Assembly (NCBI GenBank): GCA_030041515.1
Contig: JASHNS010000098.1
Coordinates: 1 to 64,000 of the forward strand
Source of the DNA: Acidobacteriaceae bacterium
GTDB lineage: Bacteria; Acidobacteriota; Terriglobia; Terriglobales; Acidobacteriaceae
Length of the DNA: 64,000 nt
Direction of reading: 5' to 3'
Below the pieces are notes generated by a model. That model searched no databases. It was not told the DNA's origin and was given only the letters and a program-made list of their open reading frames with translations. The position numbers were made by a program, and so were the translations under genes. This document shows positions 44,224 through 57,957 of the stretch, one piece after another (the first letter of the stretch is position 1; every line of letters starts with the position of its first letter).

Positions 44224-44766
44224 TTAATACTCCACCTCCACCACCGAAAGCGGCGACTGCGCCTCCAGAAAGCTCCGCGATCCGGCGACGTCGAACTTCG
44301 GATCGGTCGCCTCCAGACACAGAAAGAATTTGTCGCTCGTCGCGCCGTTACGGAAGTTCGGCGCGTTGAAAACCGGGTGATACGGCTTGGGCAGCCCGTT
44401 CAGCGCCAGCATCCCAAAGCATGCCGAAAGCCCCGCCCACAAAATCGTCCATTCGTACGCCGGAACACAGAAGGCCGGCCATGAAAAATAAGGCCGCCCC
44501 GCGATATTCAGCGGAAACGCCCAGACCGCAATCCACGTTTCCAGCCCGAACATCGCCGCCAGTCCCAGCAGCCCGCCAATCAGGCACACCAGCGAAACCT
44601 CATCCCGATGGAAACCGATCGCCTCCGCCGCCTCTTCCACCGGATAGGGCGTATAGCAGTCCATGCGCCGGTAGCCCGCCTTGCGCGCCTCGTGCGCCGC
44701 ATGCACCAAAGCGGTGGGCGTCTCGAATTCCGCCATCAGGCAATAGACCCCTTCAGGTAAAGGCAT
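44224..44766 (-). CDS. actD: Alternative Complex III subunit ActD (DUF3341)
   Basis: A 180-aa membrane subunit with two helices (VSLVCLIGGLLGLAAMFGLE and YEWTILWAGLSACFGMLAL). The N-terminal domain MAEFETPTALVHAAHEARKAGYRRMD is the DUF3341 hallmark, and the C-terminal PVFNAPNFRNGATSDKFFLC is also conserved. It overlaps actC by one base (ATG within TGATG). It is a structural subunit at the membrane surface. Confidence 0.93.
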   Translation of the reverse strand: MPLPEGVYCLMAEFETPTALVHAAHEARKAGYRRMDCYTPYPVEEAAEAIGFHRDEVSLVCLIGGLLGLAAMFGLETWIAVWAFPLNIAGRPYFSWPAFCVPAYEWTILWAGLSACFGMLALNGLPKPYHPVFNAPNFRNGATSDKFFLCLEATDPKFDVAGSRSFLEAQSPLSVVEVEY

Positions 44767-46205
44767 CAGTCACCGGCCTCCGGCACCGGGGTTCCCGTCG
44801 AATGAGGTTCGGCTTTCTCCCGCACCTTCGCTCCCGGTAACATCAGCCGCAGCTCGCTCATCGGGATCATAGGCAGGAAGCGGATAAACAGGAAGAACAT
44901 GAACGTAAAGAATCCCAGTGTGCCCGCGAACGTCATATAGTCCCACCGCGTAGCGCGGTAGGTTCCCCACGACGACGGCAGAAAGTCGCGCGACAGGCTG
45001 GTTACCACAATCACGAAGCGCTCGAACCACATGCCCGTGTTCACAATCAGCGACATCAGGAACATGAATCCGATATTGGACCGGAGCTTGCGGACCCACA
45101 TCAGCTGCGGCAGCGCGATGTTACATGTAATCAGCGTCCAGTAAGACCACCCCATCGGCCCGAACATCCGGTTCCACATCATGAAGTATTCCCAATGGCT
45201 GGCCGAATACCACGCCATGAACACTTCCGACGAATACCCGTAAGCCACGATCATGCCCGTAGCCAGCATCACCTTCGCGCAGTTATCGATGTGCCGGATC
45301 GTGATCAGATCTTCGAGGTGGTAGAACTTCCGGATCGGAATCGCCAGCGTCAGCACCATCGCGAACCCGGAATAAATCGCGCCCGCCACAAAGTACGGCG
45401 GGAAAATCGTCGTGTGCCAGCCCGGCATGAAAGCCACCGCGAAATCGAGGCTGATCACGCTGTGGACTGAAAGCACCAGCGGCGTCGCCAGTCCGGCCAG
45501 CAGGATCGACGCCGTCTCATAGCGCACCCAGTGCCGCACCGATCCCCGCCAGCCCAGCGATACCAGGCCGTACATGAACTGCGCGAACTTCGACTGCGCC
45601 CGGTCGCGCATCGTCGCCAGATCCGGAATCATTCCCATGTACCAGAACACCACCGAGATCGTCGCGTACGTCGACACCGCGAACACATCCCACATCAGCG
45701 GCGACCGGAACTGCGGCCAGTAATTCATCGAGTTCGGATAAGGGAACAGCCAGTACCCCAGCCATGGGCGCCCCAGATGCAGCACCGGGAACATGCCCGC
45801 GCACATGACCGCGAATATCGTCATGGCCTCGGCAAAGCGGTTGATGGAATTACGCCATCCCTGCTTGAACAGCAGCAGAATTGCTGAGATCAGCGTCCCG
45901 GCATGGCCGATGCCGATCCACCAGACAAAGTTGATGATCGCGAATCCCCACGCCACGGGAATCGTGATGGCCCAGATGCCCACGCCTTTCACGAAGAGCC
46001 ACGTGACCGCCGTGGTCAGCATGCACACGAAACCGCCGGCGACCAGGAACCCAAACCACCACCCCAGCGGGGTGTGCGTCGTCAGCACGATCCGGCTTAC
46101 CTTGTCCGTGACCGACTTGAAGGTATGCCCCGGCGCGATCACGCGGTATTCGCCGGTGACGGGATCGATCATCGGATTCGTTACAGGTGCGTCCTTTGTT
46201 GCCAT
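44766..46205 (-). CDS. actC: Alternative Complex III quinol-oxidising subunit ActC (NrfD/PsrC-like)
   Basis: A 479-aa membrane subunit with ten helices of the NrfD/polysulfide-reductase type that binds and oxidises quinol. Conserved parts are TPLGWWFGFLVAGGFVCMLTT, WWIGIGHAGTLISAILLLF (with the His at the quinol site) and FGLYWHF-like VSTYATISVVFWYMGMIPDLATMRDR. Electrons pass to the ActB iron-sulfur chain. It is separated from actB by a 77-bp gap that contains simple repeats. Confidence 0.94.
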   Translation of the reverse strand: MATKDAPVTNPMIDPVTGEYRVIAPGHTFKSVTDKVSRIVLTTHTPLGWWFGFLVAGGFVCMLTTAVTWLFVKGVGIWAITIPVAWGFAIINFVWWIGIGHAGTLISAILLLFKQGWRNSINRFAEAMTIFAVMCAGMFPVLHLGRPWLGYWLFPYPNSMNYWPQFRSPLMWDVFAVSTYATISVVFWYMGMIPDLATMRDRAQSKFAQFMYGLVSLGWRGSVRHWVRYETASILLAGLATPLVLSVHSVISLDFAVAFMPGWHTTIFPPYFVAGAIYSGFAMVLTLAIPIRKFYHLEDLITIRHIDNCAKVMLATGMIVAYGYSSEVFMAWYSASHWEYFMMWNRMFGPMGWSYWTLITCNIALPQLMWVRKLRSNIGFMFLMSLIVNTGMWFERFVIVVTSLSRDFLPSSWGTYRATRWDYMTFAGTLGFFTFMFFLFIRFLPMIPMSELRLMLPGAKVREKAEPHSTGTPVPEAGD

Positions 46206-46282
46206 TCGCTCCGATTCCCCTGGTCTGCCGCTAACTTGCTGCCTCGCTAACCTGCTGACTTGCTGTCCTGCGCACTCGCCTG

Positions 46283-49200
46283 TTACGCCCTGTATTCCCC
46301 CAGCTCCTTCGCCAGGTCCTCATTCACGTTGATCACTTCCGCCAGATACGTCGTCCGCGGCCGCGTATTCAGGTCCGCCAGCACTCCATACGTTCTCGCG
46401 TTCGCCTTCAGCTTCGCCACTTCGCTGGTCTTGTCGTTGATGTTCCCGAACACGATCGCATTCGTCGGGCACGCCTGCTGGCATGCTGTCCGGATTTCTC
46501 CATCGCATATCGGACGGTTATCCTTATCCGCCTCGATCTTCACCGCCTCGATCCGCTGCACACAGTAGGTGCACTTTTCCATCACGCCACGGCTGCGAAC
46601 CGAAACGTCCGGATTCCGCATCAGCTTCAGACTCGGCGTATCCCAATCCGAATACAGAAGGAAATTGAACCGCCGCACCTTATAAGGACAGTTATTCGAG
46701 CAGAACCGCGTGCCTACGCACCGGTTGTAAACCATCAGGTTGATGCCTTCCGGTGAATGCACTGTCGCGCCCACCGGGCATACCAGCTCGCAGGGCGCAT
46801 TCTCGCACTGATGGCACGTCATAGGCTGGAAATGCGCTCGCGGTGCCGCCAGATCCCCCTCAAAATACGTGTCGATCCGGATCCACTGCAGGATGCGGCC
46901 GATCTTCGTCTGCAGCCGCCCTACCACCGCGATGTTGTTCTCCGCGTAGCAGGATGCAATGCAGGCGTTGCATCCCACGCACGAGTTCAGATCGATCGAC
47001 ATCCCCCATGCGTTCTTGTCATACCGGTACGCGGGGAACATGCTTTCATTCGGCCCCGGCGTCCAGTGCCCCACGCCTTGATTCGCGAAGCCAGGATCGG
47101 ACTTGTATTCCGTCAGCGAGGCGTAGCGGATAATCCCGCGGTCCAGTGATTCGTTCCCTTCCAGCGAATGTGTCCCGCTGCCGTCCCCGCCATGCGAAAC
47201 CGAACGCTGGTCGATGTAGTCTTCCCTCGGCACGCACAGGTCGTAAATGTCGCCGGTCTTCTCCACGCCTGCCCCCGGCTGCATCCATGGGCCGCCCGAC
47301 TGCTGGATCAGATACCCGTTGTACCCCACGCCTCCAGCCACGCGCCCTGTGCTGCGCCCCTGCCCCAGCGTGATCACGACCACGTCATCGGCCTGCCCGG
47401 GAACCGGCAGTGCCCCGCCGATGATATATTTGCCGCCCAGGCTGACCTTCACCGCAGCGTTCTGCGCCAGCCCGAACTTTTCCAGCGTCGCGTAGCTCAT
47501 CTGTACCGCGTTGTCCCACGACAAATAGGTCACCGGCCGCGGAATCTCCTGCAGCCAGCCCACGTTCGCGTAGCGCCCGTCGTACGTGTGCAGGTCGGGA
47601 CGGAAAACGACCTCGATCCCGTTCCCCGCCGGCGCCGGCGCCTTCGGAAGTGTCACCTTTGCTGTGACATTCTTCGGCGTGTACGCAGTGTTCTCCAGCC
47701 AGCCGTCATGCAGCACCTTGCGCCACGCGAAATCCGCATCGGCCGCAGCGGCAGCCGCTCCGGCGGTCGCGCCCTTCGCTTTCTGCGGTGCAGGACTCCC
47801 CCCGGAAACCACACCCTTCCACGTGGTCCGCACCGCCTCGTACGGCGATACGTCCGGATTATCCAGCAGCGACTGCAGAATCTCGTGCTCGGAGTGCCCG
47901 TCGTACAGAGGTGCAATCATCGGCTGCACCACGCTCACCGTGCCGTCATACGCGCGCGCATCCGACCACTTCTCCAGATAATGTTGATTGTTGATGTGCC
48001 AGTGCGCGACCTCGCTGGTCTCGTCCGAATGTGAGCTGAGCTGAACGATGGTTCCCACGTGATTCAGCGCATCCACGAAATCCAGATCCGTCGGCGTCGC
48101 ATACACCGGGTTGGCGTTCAGGATCACCAGCCAGTCGACCTTGCCGGCGTTCATATCCGCCACCAGCGACTTCAGATCGTCCATCTGGATCGACGGCATC
48201 GGGTTCACGGGATCGGTATAGACCACCGTCTTTCCCACATTCCCCAGCGCCTGGTTCATCGCAAAGGCGGCCAAATGCACTTCCGGAGCTGCATATTCCC
48301 CCGGAATCACAACGCATTTGCCGGCATTCGCCTTCAGGTCGGCAGCCAAACCCTGCAGATAAGTCGCCTGGTGCGATGTCCAGTTGTATCCGACAGCACC
48401 ATTGCCCGCGCCCACAGCCGCCGCCAGATCCAGCGCGAACGGCGCCACCTGGCTCGGACGCACCTGCAGCCGATGCTCCGCTTTGAATCCTGTCGCCGTC
48501 GTTACCGCCTCAACGACGTACAGCCGGTTCATCTCCGTATTGCCCTGGAGCTTGCGCCGGCTCGCGTAGTCCTTCGCCAAACGATGGAATCCCGGGAACT
48601 GCGCGCCGCCCAGAAAATCCGCGTCGAGCGACACAATCACGTCCGCCTGATCCAGGCGATACTGCGCGTCTACATAATCGCCAAAGGCCTGCTTCGCCGC
48701 AACGTAATGCGCATCGCGGTTCGCTGGATCGTACTGGACGAACTTCGCCTGCGGATAATTCTTCTGGCCTTCCTGCCATTGCCGAGCCAGCGTCGGCGAT
48801 GTCACCGTCGAGCTCAGGAAATACAATCCCTTACCACCGGATGCCTTCTTGTCCGCCAGCATCGCGCGAAACTCCGCCTCGAACGCAACCCACGACCGCG
48901 TCTCCCCGCGGTACCGCACGTGCTGAGCCCGGTCCGGATCGTACATGTCCAGCAATGTCGCCTGGGTGATCGGATCCGATCCGCCCTGGTTATACGGATG
49001 CTCGGGATTCCCATCCACCTTAATCGGGCGATAGGCGTCGCTCTTGATGAGCACCGGAACTGCGCCCGTGGCAAATGGAAACGCCGAAGCGAAATACACG
49101 GGCTTGCCCAGAATCAGATCTTCCGGCGCATTCACATAGGGATAAATCAGCTCATCGGGCTGCTTCGTGCATCCTGCCAGCCCCGCTAGCGCCAGCGACG

Positions 49201-49453
49201 CTCCCATGACCTTCAGGAACCCTCGGCGCGAAACCGGGTCCAGCCACTCCGAAGCGTGTTGTGGGAACTCCCGCTCCAGCGCCTCCTGGAACTCCGGAGT
49301 ATTGGCCAGTTCGTCGATCGAGCGCCAGTACCGCTTGCCCTTCTGCTTCGCCAGCTTCGCCCGTACTTCCTCGAGCGTGAGCTTTCGTTCCGGCGTGCCG
49401 GCCGTCTCGCCTGATTGCTGATCGCTGATCACTGATCCCCCGTTCGTGCTCAT
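46283..49453 (-). CDS. actB: Alternative Complex III iron-sulfur subunit ActB (molybdopterin-like + 4Fe-4S)
   Basis: A 1056-aa periplasmic subunit with two parts. The N-terminal ~750 residues are like a molybdopterin oxidoreductase that holds no cofactor in known ACIII. The C-terminal part is a ferredoxin-like domain with four Cys clusters (CVGCNACIASC, CHQCENAPCELVC, CSNNC, CTYC, CQQAC). A Tat signal (SRRGFLKVMGASLALAGLAGC) suggests export folded and lipidation. The start ATG 49453 overlaps the actA stop. The N-terminal linker (SVISDQQSGETAG) is encoded by degenerate simple repeats. Confidence 0.95.
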   Translation of the reverse strand: MSTNGGSVISDQQSGETAGTPERKLTLEEVRAKLAKQKGKRYWRSIDELANTPEFQEALEREFPQHASEWLDPVSRRGFLKVMGASLALAGLAGCTKQPDELIYPYVNAPEDLILGKPVYFASAFPFATGAVPVLIKSDAYRPIKVDGNPEHPYNQGGSDPITQATLLDMYDPDRAQHVRYRGETRSWVAFEAEFRAMLADKKASGGKGLYFLSSTVTSPTLARQWQEGQKNYPQAKFVQYDPANRDAHYVAAKQAFGDYVDAQYRLDQADVIVSLDADFLGGAQFPGFHRLAKDYASRRKLQGNTEMNRLYVVEAVTTATGFKAEHRLQVRPSQVAPFALDLAAAVGAGNGAVGYNWTSHQATYLQGLAADLKANAGKCVVIPGEYAAPEVHLAAFAMNQALGNVGKTVVYTDPVNPMPSIQMDDLKSLVADMNAGKVDWLVILNANPVYATPTDLDFVDALNHVGTIVQLSSHSDETSEVAHWHINNQHYLEKWSDARAYDGTVSVVQPMIAPLYDGHSEHEILQSLLDNPDVSPYEAVRTTWKGVVSGGSPAPQKAKGATAGAAAAAADADFAWRKVLHDGWLENTAYTPKNVTAKVTLPKAPAPAGNGIEVVFRPDLHTYDGRYANVGWLQEIPRPVTYLSWDNAVQMSYATLEKFGLAQNAAVKVSLGGKYIIGGALPVPGQADDVVVITLGQGRSTGRVAGGVGYNGYLIQQSGGPWMQPGAGVEKTGDIYDLCVPREDYIDQRSVSHGGDGSGTHSLEGNESLDRGIIRYASLTEYKSDPGFANQGVGHWTPGPNESMFPAYRYDKNAWGMSIDLNSCVGCNACIASCYAENNIAVVGRLQTKIGRILQWIRIDTYFEGDLAAPRAHFQPMTCHQCENAPCELVCPVGATVHSPEGINLMVYNRCVGTRFCSNNCPYKVRRFNFLLYSDWDTPSLKLMRNPDVSVRSRGVMEKCTYCVQRIEAVKIEADKDNRPICDGEIRTACQQACPTNAIVFGNINDKTSEVAKLKANARTYGVLADLNTRPRTTYLAEVINVNEDLAKELGEYRA

Positions 49454-50331
49454 CGATGACAAACCTCGCAACTGGTCAGCTCACGCGGCGGACGAATCTT
49501 GTAGTGCTGGATCAGGAACACACCCAGCGCCTCCTGGCTTGTGAATCTTGTGTAGTGCAGACCGGCTGGCAACTCGACAGGCGCCGTGTTCTGGCTGTCC
49601 AGCGCTGTTCCCACCGTCTGCGCGTGAAATCCCGCGAGCGGAGGACTCAGGTCTGCCATCTGCACGCCCTGTTTGGGTCGCGTCTCCGTACACGTCACGC
49701 TCTCCGCTGTCGGCGTGCCCTCATTCACGGTCTCGGACGCGCACCACACCGGATGCAGCTCGGACGCCCCCGTCCACGCCATGTTGTAGATCTCGCTCGT
49801 CGGCCGCAGGTTCTTCGCCGGATTGCGGTGGCAGTTCAGGCACCACTCCATCTGCAGGGAGTTCTGCGCGTACATAATAGGCATCTCGTCCACGCGCCCA
49901 TGGCACGTCGAGCACCCAATGCCCTTATTCACATGAATCTCGTGATTGAAAAAGACGAAGTCCGGCAGGTCGTGCACCCGCGTCCACGTGATCGACTTGC
50001 CCGTTTCCCAGCTCGTCCGCACAGGCTGCAGAATCTGCGCATCCGTCCAGATCTGCGAGTGGCAGTTCATGCACGTGTGCGTCGGAGGAATGCCCGCATA
50101 GCTCGATTCCTCCACCGTCGTGTGGCAGTACTGGCACTGCAGACCCAGTCCTTCCACATGGTGCTTATGGCTGAACGGCACCGGCTGGTCGGCCCGCTGC
50201 CCCTGCCGCGTCACCCACGGCGATCGTTGCAGCGCGTCCAGCGTCAGTCCCAGGGCGATGATCAGCAGCCCCGTCAGTATCAGGCTCATTCGTGCCAGAG
50301 CATTTGAGCTGCGATCGAAAATCTGCGGCAT
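49450..50331 (-). CDS. actA: Alternative Complex III pentahaem cytochrome c ActA
   Basis: A 293-aa membrane-anchored multihaem cytochrome. An N-terminal helix (LARMSLILTGLLIIALGLTL) is followed by five CxxCH motifs: CQYCH, CMNCH, CSTCH, CLNCH and CEVCH. SHKHHVEGLGL supplies further His ligands. It takes electrons from ActB and hands them to ActE. It is the first gene of the twelve-gene operon and overlaps actB by 4 bp. Two CRP/FNR-like sites lie about 190-230 bp upstream. Confidence 0.94.
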   Translation of the reverse strand: MPQIFDRSSNALARMSLILTGLLIIALGLTLDALQRSPWVTRQGQRADQPVPFSHKHHVEGLGLQCQYCHTTVEESSYAGIPPTHTCMNCHSQIWTDAQILQPVRTSWETGKSITWTRVHDLPDFVFFNHEIHVNKGIGCSTCHGRVDEMPIMYAQNSLQMEWCLNCHRNPAKNLRPTSEIYNMAWTGASELHPVWCASETVNEGTPTAESVTCTETRPKQGVQMADLSPPLAGFHAQTVGTALDSQNTAPVELPAGLHYTRFTSQEALGVFLIQHYKIRPPRELTSCEVCHR

Positions 50332-52096: not shown

Positions 52097-52131
52097 CTGT
52101 CATTGCCGCGAAGCGGCGATTGCCTGGACGG

Positions 52132-54222
52132 CTAGTCCCCCATCACCGGCTCAGCTTTTTCAGCCGCCTTCGGCGCCGGCGCGATCCCATTGATCGACAC
52201 CAGCCCCTCCACCGGCTTCTCGCCCAGAATGTGCTCGCGGTACAGCTTCGCCATCTTCGCGTTCTCGGCGTCCTGCTTCAGCTTCGCCTCGCGCGCCCGC
52301 AGCTTCTCTTCGCGCGCGTTCTTGGCGATGCCCAGCTTGTCCAGCGAGTCGTTGGCGGCGGCATCCACATGCTCCTGGTTCAGAAGCAGCGTGTGCTGCG
52401 TCGTCTCCATCCCCACTTTCTTCCCGCCGGCGAAGATCTCGTGCCGCCCATGCTCCTCGTACCACTTCGTCAGCGTCGAGGTCATGTGCATCTTCTCGAT
52501 AATGTTCCGCCAGCCGATCCCCGTGTTATACGCGCAGAAGCTGATCTCGCCTTCCTGCGTCGCGTACGGAATAATGCACTGCTCCGTCCGCCGGAAATCG
52601 TAGTTGAACAGATCCTGGAACCACATGCCCGCGATGAACAGGAAATTCCACCGGTCCGCGCGCCGTTTCTCGATGTCCGCCATCGTCCGGTCGCCCGTGA
52701 CTTTACCGTAGTTCCGGCCCGTCGCCCCGAAGCACTTATCGAACTTCTGCAGCAGGTCGAGAATCCGGAAGTGTGTCGGCGACTTGGTCGGATCGTAATT
52801 CCGCAGCAGCGCCAGCGAGACGCCCAGGATCGACAGAAACTTCCCGCGCGCCGCGTCGTTCACCTTGGCCACGTCCTTCGCCAGCCGGTCCGCGTTCAGG
52901 AACGCCGTCACCGGCACCGCTTCCTTCGTCTCCTTGTCGATCATCAGCGCCATGCCGATCCCGCAGTTCGGATGGCATCCGCAGGAGAGCTGCCCCCAGT
53001 CGTGGTTCGGCCCGTGCACCAGGTCCGCCCAGTCCGAGAACGTGCTCATAAAGCTGATCGGGAACCAGTCCCGCGTCGGCTCACCCAGTCCCGTCTGGTT
53101 CTTGATGTCGTGCGCCATGTGGCTCAGCGTGTAACGCTGCGCCGCGCGCCGCTCATCCGTGATGTCCTCGTCGCGGCCCGTAAAGCTCACCGGCTGGAAG
53201 CTCAGGAAGTTGATCTTCTTCGGATTGTCCAGCGCGAACTGGATGATATGGCCAACCTGCTCATTGTTGATGCCGTTGATGATCGTCGTCACGGGCACGA
53301 TGTCCACGCCTGCTTCGTGCAGGTTGTGGATTGCCTGCAGCTTCACATCGAACAGATTGCCGACCTTGCGGTGCGAGTTCGCCGCGTTGCCGATGCCGTC
53401 GAATTGCAGGTACGCATAGCGCAGGCCCGCCTCCGCAGCCGCGCGGCACAGCTCCTTCGACTTCGCAAACTCGATGCCATTCGTCGCCGCCTGCACCGAG
53501 TTGTAGCCCACCTTGCGCGCATACGCCACGGCGTCCAGGAAGTACGGCGACAACGTCGGCTCGCCGCCCGAGAACTGCACGGACATCTGGCGCCGCGGCT
53601 TGATCGTGATCGCGTTGTCCAGCATCTGCTTGATTTCTTCCCACGTCAGCTCGTGCACGAACCCAACCTGATTGGCGTCCATGAAACACGGATCGCACAT
53701 CATGTTGCAGCGGTTCGTCAGGTCGATCGTCAGCACCGATCCGCGTCCGTGGGTCACCGTCGACGTGCCGTGATTGTGCAGCTTGTCATCGTTGTGCGCG
53801 CGGATATCCCGCCCGGGAAAGACTTCTTCCAGGTGCTTGAAGAACGCCGTGTCGATCGACATCAGGTCTTCAAAGTGTCCATGCTTCGGGCAATCCTTCA
53901 CCATCAGGATTTTGCCGTCGCGCTCAATAATTTGCGCCTTAATCTCTCCGACCTTCTCGTTCAGCAGGATCTCGTGCGGAAGCTTGCCATCCAGAATCTG
54001 CTGGCGAATCTCCGGAACGCACTTCGGACACAACGAATCCGTGGTCCGCGGCCAACCCAGCGGCGGCTTCTCTTTCTGCCACGATTTCAGCAGCGGCTTA
54101 TCCGACCACTTCGGCGTAAACGAGGGGTTCGGACGGATGCTGTTCACTTTCTCGAATACGGTCCAGGCCCCCTGGGCCGCCATCGTCACCGCGCGCTCTG
54201 CGTATTTCACAGCTTTCGACAT
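52132..54222 (-). CDS. Large radical SAM protein of the MJ0619/tetraether-synthase type
   Basis: A 696-aa radical SAM enzyme. An N-terminal zinc or rubredoxin-like segment has Cys65-x2-Cys68 (SLCPKC) and CPKHGHFEDL at 111-120, a hallmark of MJ0619-type proteins. The radical SAM cluster is Cys172-x3-Cys176-x2-Cys179 (NRCNMMCDPCF), followed by FSGGEPTLSP. A C-terminal Cys-rich part (LSCGCHPNCGIGM) may hold auxiliary clusters. Relatives join lipid tails into membrane-spanning lipids (Tes, Mss) or methylate pterins. Acidobacteria make iso-diabolic-acid membrane lipids, so this is a good candidate for that step. AGGAGA precedes ATG 54222. The C-terminal ~100 residues are Lys/Glu-rich coiled coil. 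Confidence 0.85.
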   Translation of the reverse strand: MSKAVKYAERAVTMAAQGAWTVFEKVNSIRPNPSFTPKWSDKPLLKSWQKEKPPLGWPRTTDSLCPKCVPEIRQQILDGKLPHEILLNEKVGEIKAQIIERDGKILMVKDCPKHGHFEDLMSIDTAFFKHLEEVFPGRDIRAHNDDKLHNHGTSTVTHGRGSVLTIDLTNRCNMMCDPCFMDANQVGFVHELTWEEIKQMLDNAITIKPRRQMSVQFSGGEPTLSPYFLDAVAYARKVGYNSVQAATNGIEFAKSKELCRAAAEAGLRYAYLQFDGIGNAANSHRKVGNLFDVKLQAIHNLHEAGVDIVPVTTIINGINNEQVGHIIQFALDNPKKINFLSFQPVSFTGRDEDITDERRAAQRYTLSHMAHDIKNQTGLGEPTRDWFPISFMSTFSDWADLVHGPNHDWGQLSCGCHPNCGIGMALMIDKETKEAVPVTAFLNADRLAKDVAKVNDAARGKFLSILGVSLALLRNYDPTKSPTHFRILDLLQKFDKCFGATGRNYGKVTGDRTMADIEKRRADRWNFLFIAGMWFQDLFNYDFRRTEQCIIPYATQEGEISFCAYNTGIGWRNIIEKMHMTSTLTKWYEEHGRHEIFAGGKKVGMETTQHTLLLNQEHVDAAANDSLDKLGIAKNAREEKLRAREAKLKQDAENAKMAKLYREHILGEKPVEGLVSINGIAPAPKAAEKAEPVMGD

Positions 54223-54564
54223 CGCTGAAATCTCCTGTATTCAGGAATACCGTACGGGTTGCCCAGGAATCAGATAAGTCATTGCACCGCCGGGCTTTGC
54301 CACTCTCAACTTAGATGAACTCGCTGCCAACGCGGAACGAAACGGGGCCGAACGGCGAAAATCCGCCTCCGGGCGGCGAAACCTGTGCCCGAATGGGACA
54401 GCCCCCGTCTCCGAATCGGCCTCGGAAAACTGCCTCCTTTGATCCCCTGCGGCCCAGGAAACACGAAGCGATCCAGCGTTCATTCCGTCCATTTCCCATC
54501 CTCCGCCGCCGGTGCGACAATCGTGGGCGCAGGATTGTCCTCTGCCCGAAGGAGAATTACCGCC
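54223..54564. other. 342-bp intergenic region between divergent radical-SAM and DUF2911 genes
   Basis: It should contain both divergent promoters. Bases 54340-54380 form a GC-rich segment with possible hairpins (around GGCGAAAATCCGCCTCCGGG). The AAGGAG ribosome site of the DUF2911 gene is at 54549-54554. I see no ORF or RNA gene I can support. Confidence 0.4.
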
Positions 54565-56476: not shown

Positions 56477-56965
56477 TCACGCCGTCCCAATCCGTTCCAC
56501 CGTCACCACGCCTTCCGGCAATCCCGCATACGCCCGAGCGCTGCTCCACGCCCATTCCTCGGCGCTCACCGCCAGCCCCGCCTTCACCGGCTCCGCGTGC
56601 ATCTGCGCCAGACTCGCCGCAACCGCCTCCCCACCCACCACGTGCGCGTCCGAGTACCGGCTCTCCCACACCTGCTCATCCAGCCGCGCGGAGCTGTTAT
56701 ACCTCCGCCGATACCGAGCCTGAATGGTTTCCACCGCATTCGCCGCCGTATCGATCTCCGGCTCCCGCATCAGCAGCCGAAAATGGTCCGGCATCACCGC
56801 ATACCCAACGACGGCGAAGCGAAACTTCACCCGCACTTCTTCAACCAGCCGCACAAACACGTCCCTGTGCTTCTCTTCCCCCAGCTTCGGCATCTTCCGG
56901 AAACACACGCACGTCACCAGATGCAGATGGCCCTTGCCGTAAACAGCCTCGCGCGACTTAGGCAT
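56477..56965 (-). CDS. RAYT-type (REP-associated) tyrosine transposase, HUH motif altered
   Basis: A 162-aa Y1 (IS200-like) transposase of the REP-associated type, with FVRLVEEVRVKFRFAVVGYAVMPDHFRLLMREPE. Active relatives carry HFH or HVH at that place; here it is HFR, so the second metal-binding His is lost. ATG 56965 is the start (MPKSREAVYGKGHLHLVTCVCFRK); the open frame runs through the tandem repeats upstream without similarity. The catalytic Tyr is not certain. It is bordered on the upstream side by the REP-like hairpins and the 54-bp repeat array, the expected partners of RAYTs. Confidence 0.75.
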   Translation of the reverse strand: MPKSREAVYGKGHLHLVTCVCFRKMPKLGEEKHRDVFVRLVEEVRVKFRFAVVGYAVMPDHFRLLMREPEIDTAANAVETIQARYRRRYNSSARLDEQVWESRYSDAHVVGGEAVAASLAQMHAEPVKAGLAVSAEEWAWSSARAYAGLPEGVVTVERIGTA

Positions 56966-57000
56966 AGGCTTCAGTGTAGAGTGCGTTGCACAAATCTGTT

Positions 57001-57330
57001 TTGTATCGGGGCACGACTGCAGCCCCTGCGGAAAAGACACACCGAGACAGGGGCTTTGTATCAGGGCACGGCTGCACGGCCCGCGGAGACAGGGGCCTTG
57101 TATCAGGGCACGGCTGCACAGCCGCGGAAATACACATAGAGACAGGGGCTTTGTATCAGGGCACGACTGCACAGCCTGCGGAAAAACGCATGGAGACAGG
57201 GGCCTTGTATCAGGGCACGGCTTCACAACCTGCGGAAAAACGCATGGAGACAGGGGCTTTGTATCAGGGCACGACTGCACAGCCTGCGGAAATACACATG
57301 GAGACAGGGGCTTTGTATCAGGGCACGAGT
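57001..57330. repeat. 54-bp tandem repeat array, about seven units
   Basis: Units begin TTGTATC at 57001, 57056, 57098, 57151, 57205, 57259 and 57313 (spacings 55, 42, 53, 54, 54, 54). The unit core is GGGCACGACTGCACAGCCTG then CGGAAAAACGCATGGAGACA. The last unit ends in a REP-like hairpin instead of the usual core. Three further degenerate units lie at 57810-57960. Confidence 0.8.
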
Positions 57331-57423
57331 TCACTCGTGCCGTAACGGTCCCAAAATGAGTCCGGCTTCAGCCGCTGCGGGGTCCCTCGCTCCCTCACCC
57401 GGAGTTTTTCCGCAAGCTCTTCA
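57301..57423 (+). repeat. 123-bp direct repeat, copy 1
   Basis: Matches 57958-58080 with three mismatches over 123 bp by eye. It contains the last array unit, the GGCACGAGT hairpin and the segment AACGGTCCCAAAATGAGTCC. Confidence 0.85.
57322..57341. repeat. REP-like hairpin GGCACGAGT-TC-ACTCGTGCC, copy 1
   Basis: A perfect 9-bp inverted repeat closed by TC. The same sequence recurs at 57979-57998. A different sequence of identical build is at 57730-57749. Confidence 0.8.
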
Positions 57424-57509
57424 CTCGCGCCGCAAGCGGTCCAGGAATGGCCGGGCTTCAGCTCCTGAAAATGACGCCATCCCGCCAATCCCGCACCCCC
57501 AAACAATCC

Positions 57510-57571
57510 GTCATCCTGAGCGCAGTGGAGCGCGCCACGGGCGCGGTCCACGCAGTCGAAGGACCTGCATT
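57510..57571. repeat. Dispersed hairpin repeat, family A
   Basis: The left half TCATCCTGAGCGCAG and right half GTCGAAGGACCTGCAT surround a 12-bp stem with one mismatch (57525-57536 with 57540-57551). It is a sister of the copies at 15200 and 34215. Confidence 0.7.
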
Positions 57572-57729
57572 GTGGCGCTTTCCATCACCCGCGACCCCAG
57601 CCCACGCCGCAGCCGCGCGCGCCGGAGGCGCCGGGCTTTTGGTCCTGCGATTTTCAGCATCCCCAAGCCTCGCGCGCGAACGCGGAGGTCCGCGACACAC
57701 CACGCGCCGGAGGCGCAACGCAGCAACAG

Positions 57730-57749
57730 CCCAGCACTTCAGTGCTGGG
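57730..57749. repeat. REP-like hairpin CCCAGCACT-TC-AGTGCTGGG
   Basis: A perfect 9-bp inverted repeat with TC loop, the same build as the hairpins at 57322 and 57979 but with a different stem sequence. Confidence 0.7.
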
Positions 57750-57957
57750 AAAGCAACAAAAAAGGAGGAGTCCCGGAGGGACGACGCGATCCGCCCATCA
57801 ATCGCCGCCCTGTATCACCGCACGACTCCACGCCTCACGGACAATCCTCCGAGCGACAGGCCCTGCATCCGGGCGCGACTCCACGCCCCGCGAACAATTC
57901 CCTGAGGGAGAGGCCCTGTATCCGGGCACGACTGCACAGCCCGCGGAAAGACACATA

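Follow-up and report, generated by a model that had tools for sequence, protein, structure and literature searches.

Tes (GDGT-MAS), represented by MJ0619, is the closest structurally solved relative of the protein analysed here, and a lipid function has already been proposed for its bacterial homologues. Zeng et al. 2022 (PMC8941075) reported 456 bacterial Tes homologues, named Acidobacteria among the hosts, pointed out that iso-branched bacterial tails and isoprenoid tails have identical ends, and proposed a role in the synthesis of branched glycerol dialkyl glycerol tetraethers (brGDGTs). Halamka et al. 2022 (PMC10087280) proposed a brGDGT-type role for one or both of the Solibacter Tes homologues. 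The idea that acidobacterial Tes homologues couple lipid tails is therefore not new: it is a hypothesis in print. In a 2025 Black Sea survey (PMC11868695), the activity of bacterial Tes is described as unconfirmed. GDGT production in Escherichia coli has been obtained with archaeal mj0619, not with a bacterial homologue, in a 2025 study in mLife (PMC12042123) that terms the brGDGT pathways largely unknown, and a 2026 paper in Applied and Environmental Microbiology (PMC13274423) puts forward Mss and Ger for the route that it describes. Our full-text literature searches, judged mostly on titles and abstract openings, returned neither an experimental test of a bacterial Tes homologue nor a cluster-based split of the acidobacterial ones. 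Here we analysed a window of 64,000 nucleotides, i.e. the whole stretch from position 1 to 64,000 of contig JASHNS010000098.1 of an Acidobacteriaceae bacterium (GCA_030041515.1). It codes for a radical S-adenosylmethionine (SAM) protein of a type that we called type B. Residue mapping indicates that type B is a form of the Tes superfamily in which the residues of the coupling site are retained and one of MJ0619's four metal sites is missing. As far as those literature searches go, this cluster-reduced clade is undescribed.

The type-B gene is a minus-strand open reading frame (ORF; 52132..54222) with an ATG start, and its product is 696 residues long. The first-pass annotation, made from the letters alone, had described this ORF as an MJ0619/Tes-like radical SAM enzyme. 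Each motif that it named was found where it had been placed (SLCPKC at residues 63-68, CPKHGHFEDL at 111-120, CNMMCDPC at 172-179 and CGCHPNC at 414-420), and the family assignment was borne out by model, sequence and fold matches. In a Pfam scan, PF04055 (Radical_SAM) scored 72 bits, over its cut-off, and PF23545 (HMPTM N-terminal zinc ribbon) scored 50.7 bits for a cut-off of 27. The top NCBIfam model was NF045702 (Tes), with about 325 bits and an E-value of 7e-97. The closest solved relative in sequence searches was GDGT-MAS, i.e. MJ0619 (PDB 7tol/7tom, E 5e-62). Thirty-nine homologues from named records align with the window protein at 76-95% identity, the nearest being two acidobacterial metagenome-assembled genomes (MAGs; 94-95%) and Acidipila rosea (91%), which by itself points to a host in the Acidobacteriaceae. 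A chance origin of the ORF is excluded by the Pfam, Tes-model and PDB matches together with these homologues. The plus-strand ORF that overlaps the gene (52120..54228) was regarded as an antisense shadow, the gene being GC-rich. In the host genome, the window gene is the sole match to the Tes model at E 1e-20, the other matches of the protein search being no stronger than 3e-7.

The Tes model has a curated cut-off of 450 bits, and the score of about 325 bits rules out type B as a Tes equivalog. We scanned 297 genomes of the phylum with this model at E 1e-20 and obtained matches in 179 of them, above the cut-off in 34. Among the scores listed, two groups can be distinguished, one at 472-619 bits (Tes-type) and the other reaching up to about 350 bits (type B). 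In a third group, type C, the Tes-profile match ends near position 314; the five sequences extracted score 260-328 bits against the whole TrsS model (NF045646; the cut-off is 490) and 232-263 bits against part of the Tes model. Direct comparison with the window protein separated the three groups in the same way, with 710-1639 bits for 147 type-B proteins, at most 334 for 32 Tes-type proteins and at most 107 for the five of type C, incomplete ORFs having been left out of this protein set. The identity of the window protein to the Tes-type rows of alignment A1 is 30-36%. In a tree of 63 rows, type B forms a single clade with full support (100*) on a stem of 2.16 changes per column. Its nearest rows are three Tes-type sequences (L031, L033 and L034), a proximity that the tree program flags as a possible meeting of long branches, and the Tes rows do not form one clade. 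Our claim of deep placement is limited to type B being one clade.

The residues that Lloyd et al. (PMC9433317) describe for MJ0619 were next located in 144 distinct type-B, 29 Tes-type and five type-C sequences. The three cysteines of the radical SAM CX3CX2C motif (C172, C176 and C179; residues 172-179, 53686..53709, minus strand like all features of this protein) are present in 144/144 type-B sequences and are kept in the Tes-type and type-C sequences too. They lie in a radical SAM core (PF04055) that spans residues 168-330 (53233..53721). The four site residues of the rubredoxin-like or zinc-ribbon domain matched by PF23545 (53857..54051) are likewise invariant in type B: C65 and C68 are kept in 144/144 type-B and 29/29 Tes-type sequences, and C111 and H114 (C33 and H36 of MJ0619) are conserved in all three groups. 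The MJ0619 sequence used covers residues 15-492, which leaves C9 and C12 outside, so C65 and C68 were matched via their CxxC spacing. At the C-terminal cluster, the equivalents of C338, C455, C470, Met439 and Tyr459 are kept in 144/144 type-B and 29/29 Tes-type sequences, and each of these positions in at most one of the five type-C sequences. C420, the last cysteine of CGCHPNC (52963..52983), corresponds to C338 and, with C549 (C455) and C563 (C470), probably provides the cysteine ligands of this cluster, to judge by their conservation; M533 (M439) and Y553 (Y459) complete the remainder of the site (52522..52629). Conservation of the tyrosine is no proof of function, because the MJ0619 mutants Y459F and Y459L remain active (PMC9433317).

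The picture is the opposite at the N-terminal auxiliary [Fe4S4] site, a point that the first-pass annotation had not raised. The cysteines corresponding to C73, C77 and C80 of MJ0619 occur in none of the 144 type-B sequences, as compared with 29/29 Tes-type and 5/5 type-C sequences. The corresponding region of type B (53737..53790) reads HxHGxS instead, with His151 in place of C77 (144/144) and Ser154 in place of C80 (143/144). Other novelties of type B are a conserved His149, an additional Cys414 that is invariant throughout the group, and the motifs DPCFMDANQVG and GMWFQD in most of the rows seen. In MJ0619 the N-terminal cluster is located at the surface (PMC9433317). One may guess that the lost cluster was an electron relay and that its loss is an adaptation to a different redox partner or to oxygen. 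The suggestion of a Tes-like, tail-coupling lipid enzyme made for this gene thus survives in part: type B is an MJ0619 relative that keeps the C-terminal cluster site, but it is not a Tes equivalog, it misses one of four metal sites, and membership of Mss is unsupported. As a genome control, which is not an Mss sequence, the genome of T. maritima has no match to the Tes model at E 1e-20 and matches only at 1e-15, as compared with 1e-96 for the window gene.

The AlphaFold model of the window protein gave the same fold assignment, with 7tom (E 3.5e-23) and 7tol (6.5e-23) as best matches and the next PDB entry at 1.1e-5. Its quality is modest, with a mean predicted local distance difference test (pLDDT) score of 66.5, a predicted template modelling score of 0.71 and pLDDT values <50 at residues 145-162, 178-188 and 535-604. 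Some residues of the C-terminal cluster site fall in the last segment, and hence the model does not test the catalytic pocket. A predicted N-terminal helix (residues 3-27, 54142..54216) has block pLDDT values of 88-94 and is amphipathic, its best 18-residue hydrophobic moment of 0.52 being reached by 78 of 5000 shuffles; contact with the membrane through this helix is possible. Type B also harbours an insert of ~22 residues in the rubredoxin loop that the five Tes-type rows of alignment A1 do not have. The C terminus had been reported as an unusual, long Lys/Glu-rich coiled coil. The last 92 residues are indeed rich in Lys (11%) and Glu (12%), and also in Ala (16%), but the model predicts a single low-confidence helix there (residues 636-664, 52231..52317). 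This tail does not define the clade: it is long in the relatives of the window protein and short, with no K/E-rich stretch, in several other type-B proteins of alignment A1 (L040, L042, L046, L079 and L081).

To determine how widespread type B is, we scanned 396 genomes of the phylum with the window protein, counting as type B those whose best match was below E 1e-150, a procedure that misses fragments. The protein has matches at E 1e-10 in 235 of the 396 genomes, and type B was found in 184 of the 396, from 44 families. In the sample of the host family, matches at E 1e-100 occur in 130/150 genomes, 101/110 good genomes and 74/79 genera; these counts include fragments and two genomes (G451 and G413) counted via a 42-44% identity match only, perhaps a paralogue. 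More generally, four host-family genomes (G454:C159, G451:C61, G444:C214 and G413:C169) carry divergent type-B-like matches at 39-44% identity, possibly paralogues. Among the 80 top-ranking homologues out of at least 579 from named records, 29 come from Terriglobales, 17 from Bryobacterales and one from Vicinamibacterales (a Luteitalea MAG). Among the carriers that have a name are Edaphobacter, Granulicella, Acidicapsa, Bryobacterales, Paludibaculum, a 'Ca. Solibacter usitatus' MAG and the Luteitalea MAG, and the type-B protein of Edaphobacter modestus is 86% identical to that of the window. Two MAG records, one titled Bordetella parapertussis (L179, CALQCC020000001.1; 79% identity) and the other Acidimicrobiia (L200, VFZG01000016.1; 76% identity), also contain type B and are probably mislabelled acidobacteria. 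A tblastn search of PLSDB returned six records, all <30% identical, with no sign of plasmid spread in that database. We also considered selenocysteine, as a single in-frame TGA lies under the type-B match in G024, G050 and G298, all of one genus; in G050 (L056, the case read) it is the normal stop at the gene end, and this idea was rejected.

This distribution can be set against that of iso-diabolic acid. We take Terriglobales, Bryobacterales and Luteitalea to represent acidobacterial subdivisions 1, 3 and 6, and the Occallatibacter-Telmatobacter-Terracidiphilus clade to belong to the family Acidobacteriaceae. Iso-diabolic acid has been reported in subdivisions 1, 3, 4 and 6, and reportedly amounts to 20-40% in cultures of subdivisions 1 and 3 (PMC13274423). 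In the Occallatibacter-Telmatobacter-Terracidiphilus clade, five table columns give 27-49% of fatty acids (PMC12935467). The brGDGT-making Edaphobacter aggregans encodes a single Tes homologue, which shares 32% identity with the archaeal query (PMC8941075). We infer that this homologue is of type B, because the window protein is 30-36% identical to Tes-type proteins and the type-B protein of E. modestus is 86% identical to that of the window. The Koribacter and Solibacter homologues of the same study are 42% and 40% identical to MA_1486, and from these values they would be Tes-type.

Our preferred reading, with a probability of roughly 0.58, is that type B performs the ω-ω coupling of iso-C15 acyl tails that yields the iso-diabolic-acid lipids of Acidobacteriota. 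It is suggested by GDGT-MAS being the best match in both sequence and fold, the invariance of the C-terminal cluster residues, the wide distribution of type B in the family and the abundance of iso-diabolic acid in that family. By homology to MJ0619, a stand-alone enzyme of the Tes superfamily would link two iso-branched acyl tails of phospholipids through their terminal methyl carbons. SAM bound at the CX3CX2C cluster would give rise to a 5'-deoxyadenosyl radical that abstracts a hydrogen from the end of one tail, and the resulting carbon radical would be held at the C-terminal [Fe4S4] cluster, coordinated by three cysteines and a labile Met533. A second SAM event would act on the other tail, whose radical would attack the first to form the C-C bond; ether bonds would be formed in a separate step. 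The conserved methionine and three cysteines fit such a parking of the radical. Substrate, product, mechanism and contact of the N-terminal helix with the membrane are thus all putative.

Several observations weigh against this reading. The whole sampled clade lacks one of the metal sites of MJ0619, and substrate or chemistry may have changed with this loss; the long stem of the clade also suggests that function may have shifted. The structure model is weak, also at some positions of the C-terminal cluster. In the family sample, 20/150 genomes (nine of the 110 good ones) have no match at E 1e-100. According to a review (PMC11767167), iso-diabolic acid is substantial in only 3/17 strains, in contrast with the 20-40% cited above. 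There is no lipid operon around type B, the commonest neighbour cluster being present in 15/142 loci, and a second radical SAM gene, itself uncharacterised, is no less universal in the family (43/43 genomes). Finally, the activity itself is a prediction from homology.

The first alternative is that type B is a Tes-fold lipid enzyme with a different product, i.e. that it forms an intramolecular macrocycle or a cross-link, introduces a dehydrogenation or couples other tails. The loss of the N-terminal cluster cysteines in all 144 sequences, the long stem and the new conserved residues (His149, His151, Cys414 and the DPCFMDANQVG and GMWFQD motifs) would then reflect a changed function. In addition, three family genomes (G073, G121 and G265) keep a Tes-type gene at most 6 kb from type B, adjacent to it in G265, so that redundancy between the two need not be supposed. 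However, the residues of the radical-holding cluster are wholly conserved, and type B is present in most sampled genomes of a family rich in iso-diabolic acid. We therefore regard a different product as rather unlikely.

Alternatively, iso-diabolic acid might be made by another radical SAM enzyme, either an Mss homologue or the product of an L207-type gene (see below), with type B acting elsewhere in the pathway. Mss is a bacterial enzyme, and 11/97 Acidobacteria MAGs of the Black Sea were reported to carry it (PMC11868695). The host genome itself contains 22 PF04055 places, the window gene among them. Fourteen of the other 21 genes could be given family names, 12 over the curated cut-off and two loosely, with scores below it (Rv2578c-like and QueE-like), and seven are unnamed. 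Across 43 family genomes, the unnamed genes L216, L219, L223 and L207 recur in 8, 3, 20 and 43 genomes, respectively (L215, L224 and L226 are outside this count). Type B is thus not the sole universal candidate, since L207-type genes are found in 43/43. L207 (G000:C54:3531-4577, minus strand, PF04055) is an uncharacterised radical SAM gene coding for 349 residues; it may or may not already be described. It scores 50 bits against the Tes model and 76 bits against the MoaA model, each far below the cut-off, and its match to 7tol is confined to the core (E 1e-5). Six C-terminal cysteines are conserved in six aligned sequences and look SPASM-like by eye, although the Pfam scan gave no SPASM domain match. 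A related gene, L215 (G000:C20), 53% identical to L207, is also an uncharacterised radical SAM gene. Of the less frequent unnamed genes, L219 (host contig C59) codes for a B12-binding radical SAM protein with a DUF4070 domain, possibly a lipid or hopanoid methylase.

L207-type genes are linked to type B in both occurrence and position. At E 1e-50 they are found in 126/396 genomes of the phylum, in a few (e.g. G069, G099 and G269) only at 41-46% identity. Type B is present in 118 of these 126 genomes vs 66 of the 270 others (Fisher p 5e-42), and, with the host family excluded, in 74/82 vs 66/270 (p 1e-27), both p values ignoring kinship. Of the eight genomes that have L207-type genes and no type B at the E 1e-150 threshold, three belong to one family (f39; G066, G221 and G341). 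L207 homologues of 60-72% identity adjoin type B on the same strand in 5/142 loci, upstream in four of them and downstream in the fifth. At least nine genomes from five families (f10, f60, f72, f77 and f84) have an L207-type gene whose end lies upstream of the type-B match, on the same strand and at a distance of 112-468 bp; the number nine is a lower bound obtained by comparing match lists by eye. Three of these genomes (G132, G259 and G267) are also among the five adjoining loci. Simple arithmetic gives a chance expectation of far below one such pair in 118 genomes, same-family genomes not being independent. We read this association, which is not a proof, as L207-type and type-B proteins sharing a pathway. 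As for L207-type enzymes making iso-diabolic acid themselves, 66/184 type-B genomes have no L207-type match at E 1e-50, and the resemblance to Tes is limited to the low model score and the core match to 7tol. We consider it improbable that L207-type enzymes or Mss are responsible in place of type B.

A pterin or other small-molecule methyltransferase, as implied by the HMPTM name of the zinc ribbon and the old annotation of MJ0619, or a TrsS-like enzyme in view of the 211.5 bits obtained with the TrsS model, is very improbable: that score is well under the cut-off of 490; the type-C proteins, which can be aligned over the full length of the TrsS model, do not have the C-terminal cluster residues conserved in type B; and Lloyd et al. 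(PMC9433317) could not corroborate pterin methylation for MJ0619, arguing that its hydrophobic pocket makes such a role unlikely.

Returning to type B as the coupling enzyme, we may tentatively go one step further. A Tes-superfamily enzyme with one cluster fewer, suited to aerobic life through the loss of a surface Fe-S cluster and accompanied in many lineages by an L207-type partner (encoded just upstream of it in five families), might constitute the missing aerobic route to iso-diabolic acid and brGDGT precursors, distinct from archaeal Tes and anaerobic Mss. This composite scenario is speculative, and we hold it to be possible rather than probable.

In the window, the type-B gene is flanked by a small ORF with no Pfam match and by a DUF2911 gene. 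The two commonest neighbour clusters of type B (15 and 14 loci) are mostly in the window's own family and were taken as local synteny. Elsewhere in the host genome, contig C55 codes on the plus strand (L204:1349-5206) for a protein of 1285 residues with two BcrAD_BadFG stretches and a DUF2229 domain according to Pfam. This architecture is associated with the ether-forming Ger, and Ger and PlsA are not separable from sequence alone (PMC13274423). The protein is a PlsA/Ger-like candidate for the formation of ether lipids, and its presence in the host speaks for the lipid reading of type B. Two other features of the window may be mentioned. At 56477-57945, a Y1_Tnp (IS200-like) transposase ORF, slightly over the cut-off, is found beside tandem repeats (42/54/108 bp and 53 bp) of GTATCAGGGCACG-type units and reads through part of the array, in an arrangement reminiscent of repetitive extragenic palindromic (REP) elements. 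On the minus strand, a multihaem cytochrome c, a large Fer4 protein and NrfD are encoded in a run (44766-50331), presumably part of an alternative complex III operon.

The lipids in question matter beyond these bacteria. The brGDGT and iso-diabolic lipids of soils and sediments serve as records of past temperature and pH. Three recent papers (PMC13274423, PMC11868695 and PMC12042123) leave their acidobacterial coupling enzyme unestablished. If type B is this enzyme, a single gene, present in 101/110 good Acidobacteriaceae genomes sampled, makes the question directly testable. Type B would also serve as a marker gene, one that escapes detection at the Tes cut-off, and it would imply that tail coupling is possible with one metal cluster fewer. 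The linked L207-type gene is a concrete lead. At the least, type B is a real and well-conserved variant with a plausible, testable role.

In comparison with the known systems, type B most resembles Tes/GDGT-MAS (MJ0619), with which it shares the rubredoxin-like site, the radical SAM cluster and the C-terminal [Fe4S4] site with its Met439 and Tyr459 equivalents, all in the same order. It differs by the absence of the cysteines of the N-terminal [Fe4S4] cluster (C73, C77 and C80, to which a His is added in MJ0619) and by its extra N-terminal helix, rubredoxin-loop insert and C-terminal extension. As to the HMPTM zinc ribbon, MJ0619, a lipid enzyme, also has a C-x2-C...C-x2-H site of this kind (PMC9433317). 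The acidobacterial Tes-type genes belong to the same superfamily and phylum, but all 29 examined retain the N-terminal cluster cysteines, unlike type B. Mss of Thermotoga and Clostridia, whose structure models superpose on Tes, condenses two fatty acyl tails, as reportedly confirmed in E. coli (PMC13274423), and it is the same reaction that we propose for type B. Lastly, the TrsS-like type C (NF045646) shares with type B the C33/H36 rubredoxin-like site and the radical SAM core; type C keeps the N-terminal cluster cysteines and lacks the C-terminal cluster residues, and type B is the reverse.

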